Assembly: GCA_937928735.1 (NCBI GenBank)
Contig: CALFVF010000001.1
Location: 62,001-126,000, forward strand
DNA: 64,000 nucleotides
Direction: 5' to 3'
Origin: an uncultured Verrucomicrobiales bacterium
GTDB taxonomy: Bacteria; Verrucomicrobiota; Verrucomicrobiia; Verrucomicrobiales; Akkermansiaceae
Of the stretch, positions 1-22,068 are shown one piece after another. How positions within the stretch are numbered: position 1 is the first letter of the stretch; each line of letters starts with the position of its first letter. The notes below the pieces were generated by a model, which had not been told where the DNA came from, did not search any database, and saw only the letters and a list, made by a program, of their open reading frames with translations. The translations under genes and the position numbers were made by a program.

Positions 1-622
1 ATTGTCTGGTCTGCATGATTCGGAGCTCATCTTCACGGAATTTCTGCCAGCCTTCTTCTGCGTAGAAATCTTTATCGGTTTTACCGAGAGCATTTTCAGG
101 GGTGCCCGCCCCTATCCACTCAGCGAGTTGTTTATTAATGAGCACAAAGCGTGATTCTGTGTCCTTGTAGTAAATATGTAGAGGGACACTATCGAGCACA
201 GTTTTTAGCATCGAGCGCTCTTCATTGAGGGCGATTTCAGCTTCTTTTCTTTGGGAAATATCGATGGCTGATCCAGCTAGGCGGATCGCCTGACCTTGAG
301 AATCTCTCACGACAATGGCGCGGATACGCAGCCAGCAAGTTGTGCGATCGGACTTCAGAAAACGGCAGTCAATGGCAAAGAGTCGCTCCTCGGTGTCCAT
401 GAGCGCGAGTTCGAGCTCTTTGCGAAAGTCACCGACATCCTCTGCGTGGATGAGCCGCTGGGGCTGTGACATGAAGTTAGGAGCTGTTATTTCATCACAT
501 TGAATGAAGCTTAGGAATCGAGGGGAATAATAGATTTCCTCAGAGCCAACTTGCCAGTCCCAAACGCCCTCATTGGAGGCCTTTAAGACGAGTTCTAGAG
601 TTTCCTTCGCAGATTGTTCCAC
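1..622 (-). CDS. PAS-domain signalling protein, N-terminal part (gene runs off the window)
   Basis: An open minus-strand frame continues past the left edge. It encodes one complete PAS/PAC unit (Asn-Glu-Gly-Val-Trp-Asp-Trp near the start, ending in the PAC-like stretch SAIDISQRKEAE) followed by the beginning of a second PAS domain (VPLHIYYKDTESRF). Such tandem PAS modules usually precede a histidine kinase, GGDEF or EAL output domain, which lies outside the window, so the output is unknown. No ATG is in frame; the best start is GTG at 620-622. The same frame stays open upstream to the TAA stop of the symporter gene at 701-703, leaving 26 codons between that stop and the GTG. The PAS assignment is secure; the start and full function are not. 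Confidence 0.7.
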   Translation of the reverse strand, partial: MEQSAKETLELVLKASNEGVWDWQVGSEEIYYSPRFLSFIQCDEITAPNFMSQPQRLIHAEDVGDFRKELELALMDTEERLFAIDCRFLKSDRTTCWLRIRAIVVRDSQGQAIRLAGSAIDISQRKEAEIALNEERSMLKTVLDSVPLHIYYKDTESRFVLINKQLAEWIGAGTPENALGKTDKDFYAEEGWQKFREDELRIMQTRQ

Positions 623-12328: not shown

Positions 12329-12689
12329 TGGTGGAGGCGAGGGGAGTCGAACCCCTGTCCTAGATCTTTTTCACACAAGCTTCTACATGTTTAGTCACTA
12401 GTTTGTTTTAGGAGGTTCCTAGTCTAATGACGCCTTGGAACGACCGGTTGCCCTGTTTCATCTCATTTCGCCTCGCGGACACCCCGACTTGAAACCAGCC
12501 TACATGGTTGTTATAGCGGCGGATCCTTGGTAGGCATCAGATCGGCGGCTTCGCTAGCAATTAAGCAGCGAGTGCGAGCTCGTTAGAGTCTGCAATTATT
12601 TGTTTTGAACGGCTTTTTTAAGAGGCCAACCGATCAACCTCTACATGCTGCCAGTGTTTCCAACATCCAGTCGAAACCAAGGCGCCCCC
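12329..12689 (-). ncRNA. ssrA: tmRNA (ribosome rescue RNA)
   Basis: A 361-nt minus-strand RNA. The 5' end GGGGGCG pairs with CGCCUCC before the encoded ACCA 3' end (12329), forming the tRNA-like acceptor stem with one G-U pair. The T-arm sequence with UCGA is at 12345-12356 (GGGGUUCGACUCCCC on the RNA). The 5' side has the typical GGUUUCGACUGGAU segment. The tag frame at 12561-12593 reads ADSNELALAA then TAA, the expected ending for a degradation tag. tmRNA with SmpB frees stalled ribosomes. Upstream (12690-12728) are two short palindromes, ATTGTAT/ATACAAT and AGAGACA/TGTCTCT, over the likely promoter. Confidence 0.96.
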
Positions 12690-20667: not shown

Positions 20668-21243
20668 TTAGTTCCAGAGTTGTACTGAGTCTGCTTTGTT
20701 GACATCAAGAACTGTTACTTTTAGTCCTTTGAGAGCATTTTGCAGATCTGCTTTTGTTAGAGGCATGTCTTTGGCAAGGAATACATCCACTTGCTTGTCG
20801 ACAAATGCGACGCTGACACCATCTAATTTTTCAATAGCCACACGGGCTTTTTCATTGGTGTCTGCTCATCCACCGAGACCCTTGGTCGCGATTTGGTATT
20901 GAGCGACAGGAGAGCTGATTGTGCCTTCGGACATTTTCACGAACTTCAGGCCTTTGCCTTCGATTGCTTTTTTGACTGTGGCTTCAGAGATGGAAGCTCC
21001 GTCAGAAAGTTTAAGGCAGGCAGTTGTGCCTGAGAGACGCATGTTGTCGATGCCTTTGATTGAGGATAAGGCCGCACGGACCTTTTTCGCTGCACCTCAA
21101 CCACCCCCTGCTGACTGAACAAAAAGCACTGGTGTGCCTTGCTCTGCAACAGCTGTCGTTTTTGAAGCATCTGCACTATTAGGAAGAGCCTGGAGGACTC
21201 CTACACTCATTAGAGCAGCTACTATGCTTAGTTTAAGTTTCAT
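20668..21243 (-). CDS. Exported two-domain HMA-like protein with two predicted selenocysteines
   Basis: A 191-residue protein read through two in-frame TGA codons, at 21097-21099 (residue 49) and 20866-20868 (residue 126), to TAA at 20668-20670. A Sec signal peptide (residues 1 to about 27) is followed by two heavy-metal-associated-like domains. Domain 1 reads SAGGG-U-GAAKKVRAALSSIKGI and domain 2 reads KGLGG-U-ADTNEKARVAIEKLDGV. Counting back from the Gly-Ile/Gly-Val turn, each U sits at (domain 2) or one residue from (domain 1) the first Cys of the HMA CxxC site, and the second Cys is replaced (Ala, Thr). Each UGA is followed by a SECIS-like hairpin. The frame is clean elsewhere and has its own terminator. 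Metal or selenium handling in the periplasm is a guess from the fold. Confidence 0.85.
20836..20848 (-). other. Candidate SECIS hairpin for UGA 2 of the HMA-like gene
   Basis: Eighteen to 30 nt after the UGA the mRNA folds AGCC against GGCU with loop CGUGU; an outer CAAU/AUUG pairing can extend it across a GAAAA bulge. The loop starts 22 nt after the UGA, as in the peroxiredoxin gene. Confidence 0.6.
21068..21084 (-). other. Candidate SECIS hairpin for UGA 1 of the HMA-like gene
   Basis: Thirteen to 29 nt after the UGA the mRNA folds AAGGUC against GGCCUU (six pairs including one U-G) with loop CGUGC. The loop starts 19 nt after the UGA. Confidence 0.62.
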
Positions 21244-21504: not shown

Positions 21505-22068
21505 TTAGGCGCGGCCTAGGTAGGAGCCGTCCTCTGTGCTGATTTTGAGCACATCTCCCGTTTTGATGAAGAGGGGAACTTGCACGACTTTGCCCGTTTC
21601 TAGTGTGGCAGGCTTTGTTGGATTATTGGCGGTGTCTCCTTTGAGGCCTTCGGCAGATTCTGTGACTTCGAGTTCCACACTGGCGGGAAGAGAGACACTG
21701 ACGGCACTACCTTCAATGAAGAGGACTTCGACTTCTTGGCCTTCTTTAAGAAATTCGCCATTTTCACCGATGAGGTCACCTTCAAAACTGATTGTTTCAT
21801 AGGTGATGAGATCCATAAAGTGGTAGCCAGATGGGTCTGAGTAGGAGAACTCGAGCTTTTGGCGGTCTGTTTCTACGATTTCGACTTTGTCACTGGAGGC
21901 GAAGCGGATGGTTTTGGTCTTCCCGGTTTGGAAAGAACGTATGGTGGCAGCTATCAGAGCATTTCCCTTACCTGGTGTGCGGTGTTCGAGGTTTAGAACG
22001 GCGCCAGTTTCACCCTCATACTTGATACACTGACCTTTTTTAACGTTTGTTGCGACTACAGATGCCAT
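21505..22068 (-). CDS. efp: Translation elongation factor P
   Basis: A 187-residue protein that helps ribosomes stalled at proline stretches form peptide bonds. The N-terminal KOW-like domain ends in the loop RTPGKGNAL with Lys34, the residue that is modified in EF-P; two OB-fold domains follow, ending in the family signature ISTEDGSYLGRA. Length is normal. Lys rather than Arg at position 34 suggests the EpmA-type lysyl or a related modification, though the modifying enzyme is not in the window. It is followed by a hairpin and a T-tract terminator. Confidence 0.96.
   Translation of the reverse strand: MASVVATNVKKGQCIKYEGETGAVLNLEHRTPGKGNALIAATIRSFQTGKTKTIRFASSDKVEIVETDRQKLEFSYSDPSGYHFMDLITYETISFEGDLIGENGEFLKEGQEVEVLFIEGSAVSVSLPASVELEVTESAEGLKGDTANNPTKPATLETGKVVQVPLFIKTGDVLKISTEDGSYLGRA

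Follow-up and report, generated by a model that had tools for sequence, protein, structure and literature searches.

A probable double selenoprotein with two HMA-type domains in one order of Verrucomicrobiota

We describe a gene from an uncultured Verrucomicrobiales bacterium which, with a probability that we put at about 0.94, encodes a double selenoprotein: an exported protein of two HMA domains with one Sec in each. This estimate covers the identity of the product as a double selenoprotein and does not extend to its function; both the selenium content and the export are inferred, the latter from N-termini inspected by eye. The initial annotation had arrived at a two-Sec, two-HMA exported protein from a single sequence, and that reading is strongly supported by the double UGA, by covarying hairpins, by the presence of selA, selD and tRNA-Sec and by the predicted HMA folds.

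Results

Organization of the gene

The window, by which we mean the whole stretch of 64,000 nucleotides that was analysed, carries the gene on its minus strand at 20668..21243. The frame runs from ATG 21243 to TAA 20668 and specifies 191 aa, with UGA codons 49 (21099-21097) and 126 (20868-20866) as its sole stops; the annotation of a frame open save for these two codons was confirmed, no further internal stop being present. Sec 1 (minus strand, 21097..21099) lies in the motif GGGUGAA and Sec 2 (minus strand, 20866..20868) in LGGUADT. The Gly-rich turn described before each UGA is seen in both of the similar domains, and the loops GGGU-GAA and LGGU-ADT bear out the replacement of the second Cys by Ala and Thr.

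The first 24 or so codons (minus strand, 21172..21243) form a signal-peptide-like N-terminus, MKLKLSIVAALMSVGVLQALPNSADA, recognized by eye only and falling within a region of low pLDDT (residues 1-32). A loose lipobox pattern occurs in 12 of 51 homologous N-termini and looks genuine by eye in six, all from the genus of the window; in these six same-genus homologues a lipobox-like Cys stands in a signal-like N-terminus, again as judged by eye. The proposal of a signal peptide and export thus has signal-like N-termini in its favour but no basis beyond visual inspection. Downstream, at 20641-20604 on the minus strand, an intrinsic-terminator-like element read from the sequence comprises a perfect 14-bp stem, a 10-nt loop and a T run, in keeping with the good terminator noted earlier; it is omitted by the terminator scanner, which allows loops of 3-8 nt. 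A promoter scan found none.

Homologues, distribution and selection

Matches were found in 19 of 58 relatives searched, and the best match contains exactly two TGA codons in 19/19. A profile of 19 sequences (A1), in which the Sec columns were written as Cys to let Cys forms score too, was run against 386 genomes of the order; 54 genomes matched at E 1e-5, 50 of them with a full-length match (E <=1.3e-41, two TGA in 50/50) and four with single-domain CxxC proteins only. The seven other places listed for this sample are all single-domain frames, of which four have no stop and three carry one TGA. With one genome from the first search of relatives (G001), the 50 matches give a set of 51 full-length homologues in 51 genomes, at 27-39% identity to the window protein. 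Re-reading of the loci yielded 59 distinct matching frames, of which 51 are full-length (defined as >120 residues with two UGA); the eight dropped frames are all single-domain, and no full-length frame was excluded for a missing UGA.

The gene appears in three of the 387 genomes of a phylum sample, all members of the family of the window, and within the order the carriers fall into three families (f1, f5 and f6). The family of G040 comprises just three genomes, and all three are carriers. In the phylum and order samples up to eight first-look candidates were scored per genome, and all 18 earlier-found carriers present in the sample were recovered. Two congeners of 82-83% completeness (G003 and G008) gave no match. 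A one-protein search of genome contigs, which detects close relatives only, returned Roseibacillus persicicus alone; the named carrier is R. persicicus KCTC 12988 (L075).

Both UGAs are present in 51/51 full-length homologues and Cys is found at either site in 0/51, which answers the proposed search for Cys or Sec at both positions in related genomes. Homologues ending at the first UGA, which would have refuted the annotation, were not seen, and no full-length match lacks UGA at either site; the only Cys-containing relatives at these positions are single-domain CxxC HMA proteins. Cys counterparts are the customary aid to the discovery of bacterial selenoproteins but are no requirement. The invariant columns in the alignment of 51 are four Gly and the two Sec, and nothing else. 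Sequencing error would be an implausible source of the UGAs because two equivalent codons recur in 51 separate genome assemblies.

Summed over ten disjoint close pairs, dN/dS was 0.18 for the segment preceding UGA1, 0.15 for the segment between the two stops and 0.07 for the segment following UGA2; the last of these, made only after reading of both UGAs, is the most constrained. Comparative sequence evidence thus identifies both UGAs as conserved coding positions under selection. Since each is also accompanied by its own SECIS-type hairpin, the full product would require Sec insertion twice.

SECIS-like hairpins downstream of each UGA

In the family, hairpin 1 has its stem at +14..20/+26..32 after UGA1 and hairpin 2 at +17..23/+29..35 after UGA2, and the spacing from the UGA, as scored against the bSECIS model, is 18 and 21 nt; the 3-base shift between the sites matches the one-codon difference between the loops of the two domains. 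In the window the hairpins lie on the minus strand at 21067..21085 (loop CGUGC) and 20833..20851 (loop CGUGU). A five-base loop of the form NG[GU]NN occurs in 51/51 sequences at both sites, and this loop on a stem of at least 4 bp was present in 50/51 at each site, compared with 14/8543 at each offset for control codons taken from these genes.

Covariation was evident at both sites. At site 1, 89.9% of cells were paired, with 51 double-change cells and a covariation score of 0.397 (0.223 in shuffled data); the values for site 2 were 93.9%, 91 and 0.726 (0.278). For all three of these measures none of 500 shuffles was as high at either site, and the covariation score of slid controls reached at most 0.181 (site 1) and 0.164 (site 2). 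Pair-type counts were not above those of the shuffles, with 246/500 (site 1) and 480/500 (site 2) as high, nor did site 2 exceed the shuffles in how many of its pairs show double changes (453/500; site 1, 3/500).

The 48 nt following each UGA had a mean MFE of -12.0 (site 1) and -11.1 (site 2) versus -9.9 in other parts of the genes (Wilcoxon p 3e-6 and 0.009); an MFE of -7.5 or lower was reached in 50/51 and 44/51 sequences, and 43/51 and 44/51, respectively, include the hairpin in their MFE fold. Synonymous choice in the hairpin loop is nearly fixed: Arg is encoded by CGT in 70 and CGG in four of 74 codons (CGT makes up 20% in neighbouring frames), Ser by AGT in 24/24 (13.5% in neighbouring frames) and Gly by GGT in four. 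The bSECIS model, as given in section 5 of PMC13188914, has a loop of 3-9 nt with a G among its first two bases and a stem of 4-16 bp, 16-37 nt from the UGA and with an MFE of at most -7.5. The hairpins of the family fit this model.

The individual copies in the window speak against this fit. Their 48-nt stretches are no more stable than shuffles (z 0.01 for site 1 and -0.44 for site 2) and the MFE folds take other shapes, only the 21-nt cores folding as a hairpin; the core of hairpin 1 folds with six pairs, in hairpin 2 four pairs are followed by an A-A mismatch, and site 2 misses the -7.5 limit with a value of -4.9.

Sec machinery and genetic code

The initial annotation had named a lack of selA, selB or selC as an outcome that would refute its reading, and this outcome was observed in part. 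The genome of the window (G000) contains selA, a selD with its own UGA, and a tRNA-Sec above the gathering score that ARAGORN also calls, with anticodon tca; selB was not found in the assembly, either by family model or with the SelB of a congener as query. The gene adjoining selB in the congener was also not found in G000, in a search without a positive control. Because selB is above the cut-off in 19/20 carriers tested and the assembly is 93.9% complete in 40 contigs, an assembly gap is the likely explanation, and recent loss is not excluded. None of four genomes of a related genus without the double-UGA gene has selB.

Across the order sample, selA occurs in 47/50 carriers versus 73/336 non-carriers (Fisher p 7e-24), a value that overstates the evidence because the genomes are related and are not independent trials. 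The carriers without detected selA are G039, G605 and G725; selA was counted at E 0.001, and 5/120 genomes with selA fall below the curated cut-off. The selD gene of the same genome (L018, C18:50248-51174) is itself a selenoprotein gene with a CGGU site, and the 48 nt after its UGA lack an equivalent hairpin at the equivalent offset.

The window contains 24 stop-to-stop frames with a length of 300 codons or more, and these are closed by TAA in 14 cases, by TAG in nine and by TGA in one. SelD, a standard Sec protein, has one UGA only, at the expected CGGU site. Given this tally and the position of the SelD UGA, the code is standard with Sec decoding, as had been claimed from UGA stops elsewhere in the window, and UGA does not serve as a general sense codon. 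UGA is scarce as a terminator of the long frames of the window (1/24). A tmRNA gene with the tag ADSNELALAA lies at 12329-12689.

Protein fold and metal site

AlphaFold, supplied with the 51-row alignment, returned a model of pLDDT 85.5 in which 145/191 residues reach at least 90 and residues 1-32 stay below 50. It contains two confident beta-alpha-beta-beta-alpha-beta (HMA) domains, domain 1 spanning residues 36-110 (minus strand, 20914..21138; pLDDT block means of 94-98 from residue 41) and domain 2 residues 114-183 (minus strand, 20695..20904). A family profile (A4) matches the tandem HMA domains of CopA at E 8.4e-9, with Sec 2 aligned to the first Cys of CxxC. The best Foldseek matches are the CopA and ATP7B pairs, at a TM by query of about 0.29 and an rmsd of about 15 A over both domains; a single-domain match to CopZ has a TM of 0.78 by target at 2.1 A. 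Because the tandem matches are this poor, the structural match to the predicted model covers the single-domain fold only.

Similarity to PF00403 is weak: the window protein scores 15.8 bits (E 0.019), below the Pfam gathering score of 24.8, and 11 of 19 members scanned match at E <=0.1 (best 1.2e-7). The CxxC metal site of PF00403 is absent from both domains. At U+3, domain 1 has Ala in 33/51 and domain 2 Thr in 43/51, with Cys in 0/51 for either, and the mature chain is free of Cys in 48/51, the window protein being among the three with a single Cys. The modelled folds and the alignment to CopA therefore agree with the initial placement of UGA at the first-Cys position of the HMA site; in the model, Sec takes the place of the first CxxC Cys and the second ligand is lost.

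Single-domain relatives and origin of the tandem

Four loci (L044, L098, L100 and L101) encode signal-bearing HMA proteins of one domain whose single in-frame UGA lies in a UxxxC motif. Downstream of the UGA, an AAGUGC/GCACUU stem closes a loop of AGUCU, AGGCU or GGUCU, and this hairpin is present in the MFE fold in 3/4. These loci are likely to represent a second HMA selenoprotein family of the lineage. Five others (L096, L097, L099, L102 and L128), from families f2 and f6, encode single-domain, signal-bearing CxxC HMA proteins and are the nearest Cys relatives seen. Both groups resemble the window family in the signal-like N-terminus and the HMA domain, and differ from it in having one domain with UxxxC or CxxC.

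In a domain tree, domain 1 and domain 2 sequences fall together, apart from eight single-domain Sec and Cys relatives (support 91/95), and as separate groups they are weakly supported (67/82 and 73/3). The tree used 34 of 102 domains and few columns, and carries a long-branch warning. The hairpins of the two domains are 55% identical position by position versus 25% when shifted. These comparisons are consistent with an origin of the two domains by duplication of an HMA-UGA-SECIS unit, which we infer; the likeness of the hairpins is not proof, because coding constraint also makes hairpins alike.

Gene neighbourhood

Frames of at least 90 aa around 34 gene copies were clustered. No cluster occupies an equivalent adjoining place in more than one genus at these 34 loci, and neighbours are partly kept within a genus. 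Three clusters lie downstream of the gene in L106 and upstream in L092, one cluster is common to the L109 neighbourhood and four g9 loci, and an EF-P-like gene occurs at differing distances in the window, L111 and L115. In the window this EF-P-like gene, recognized by eye, is directly upstream on the same strand (21505-22068), an adjacency seen there only among the 34 loci. We therefore dropped the inference of an operon, there being no conserved neighbour from whose context a function could be drawn, and the gene is taken as a free-standing unit, since no neighbour is kept adjacent across genera.

Discussion

Two selenols in an HMA scaffold

We propose that Sec would be inserted at each UGA under the guidance of its own SECIS-type hairpin, giving a full-length product. 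Each domain would then offer one selenolate, the second Cys of CxxC being gone and the mature chain usually free of Cys. The two selenolates may capture a soft metal or metalloid outside the cytoplasm (e.g. Hg2+, Cu+ or Ag+); each might recruit a ligand from outside, or the two might act jointly across the domains. Such extracytoplasmic soft-metal or metalloid capture is argued from the HMA fold, the Sec at a ligand position and the exported place of the protein. It is an inference without binding data, and we put it forward tentatively, with less than even confidence. With no second thiol available, each selenol would have to work by itself, pair with an outside partner or pair with its counterpart in the other domain. 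A further and slightly more speculative possibility is that the protein is obligately a double selenoprotein, built from a duplicated HMA-UGA-SECIS unit, in which the Sec pair forms one site, as a metal clamp or an interdomain diselenide, and Cys cannot substitute.

Alternatively, the HMA fold may be a scaffold only and the role of the protein redox, with the Sec residues forming an interdomain diselenide or each reacting with peroxides or outside thiols. With no second Cys in either loop, no chelate can form within a domain, and the Thr found at U+3 in 43/51 domain-2 sites gives a UxxT motif that is also listed for OsmC-like and GPX-like selenoproteins in PMC13188914; the same review regards the majority of uncharacterised selenoproteins as redox proteins. 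Against these points, the fold is HMA and not thioredoxin-like, and Sec 2 is aligned to the first CxxC Cys of CopA. We consider a redox role nearly as likely as a metal role. Evidence from context does not decide between them, and the metal role has no conserved neighbour in its support at the 34 loci.

The double-selenoprotein reading itself faces weaker competitors. The functional form might be a short product released at UGA1 or UGA2, with full readthrough a minor, selenium-sensing form, and two UGAs within 191 codons should, by inference, cut the full-length yield. We think this improbable: constraint is strongest after UGA2, and termination at UGA1 would leave hardly anything beyond a signal peptide. 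Still harder to sustain is the view that both UGAs are nonsense mutations in a broken gene, for which the missing selB of the assembly and the single mismatch in hairpin 2 of the window could be cited. Two UGAs in every full-length homologue, dN/dS of 0.15 between and 0.07 after them, and hairpins that covary refute a decayed gene for the family, and with dN/dS below 0.2 in all three segments the earlier argument against decay holds. Reassignment of UGA, e.g. to Trp or Cys, which the rarity of UGA stops in long frames (1/24) might suggest, is the least credible and was rejected, as the long frames nearby contain no in-frame UGA and agree with Trp and Cys positions being free of UGA (without a systematic count), the UGA of SelD is at its Sec site only, and the hairpins and Sec genes would be left unexplained.

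The case for a double selenoprotein has wider bearing. It is easy to mistake a selenoprotein gene for a broken ORF, and searches built on Sec/Cys pairs miss any family that has no Cys form; there is none among the 51 homologues here. The family would combine two Sec and two SECIS-like elements in fewer than 200 codons with an HMA fold that has one chalcogen ligand per domain. The existence of a named, cultured carrier, Roseibacillus persicicus, makes double Sec decoding, the metal role and Cys intolerance directly testable.

Comparison with known systems

The N-terminal HMA pair of CopA (PDB 1p6t and 2rml) likewise consists of two tandem HMA domains, and it is the best PDB sequence match and among the best fold matches. 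CopA has CxxC thiols and the pair is part of a P-type ATPase, whereas the protein described here is predicted to be exported and free-standing with one selenol per domain, and the two domains are differently arranged (rmsd about 15 A over both). MerP belongs to the HMA-type proteins of the periplasm. A Sec-containing MerP was recorded in the GOS survey from two sequences, with no motif given (PMC2398784, Table 2), and is similar in being an HMA-type protein with Sec; in the accessible part of that paper no tandem architecture is reported for it.

No tandem-HMA selenoprotein emerged from the open literature searched, among top-ranked matches and with subscription papers outside the scope. Table 1 of a 2026 catalogue (PMC13188914), which covers 119 families and subfamilies of prokaryotic selenoproteins, has no tandem-HMA entry, and the window protein falls below every cut-off of NCBIfam release 20. 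For these reasons we consider this, as far as our searches reach, a new HMA-type double-selenoprotein family of one verrucomicrobial order, in agreement with the initial view that no characterised family was known. The nearest entries of the catalogue are NF041115 (UxxU) and a Sec P-type ATPase (UxxC), and to these may be added the Sec MerP of PMC2398784. MbdU (NF045648), described there as a metal-binding double selenoprotein, shares the possession of two Sec; unlike the window family it has a CU motif (PMC13188914), and it is not among the best 25 of 29 matched NCBIfam families. NF041115 gave the best NCBIfam match of any of 19 members scanned (E 1.2e-6) and has weak profile similarity to 16 of the 19, the window protein scoring 14.2 bits against a cut-off of 95. 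This metal-binding UxxU (seleno)protein appears in PMC13188914 under the name 'putative mercuric reductase'. It shares with the window family a metal-binding HMA-like stretch and two Sec, and differs in that its Sec residues lie together in one UxxU motif of a 74-position model, whereas in the protein described here one Sec would occupy each of two domains.
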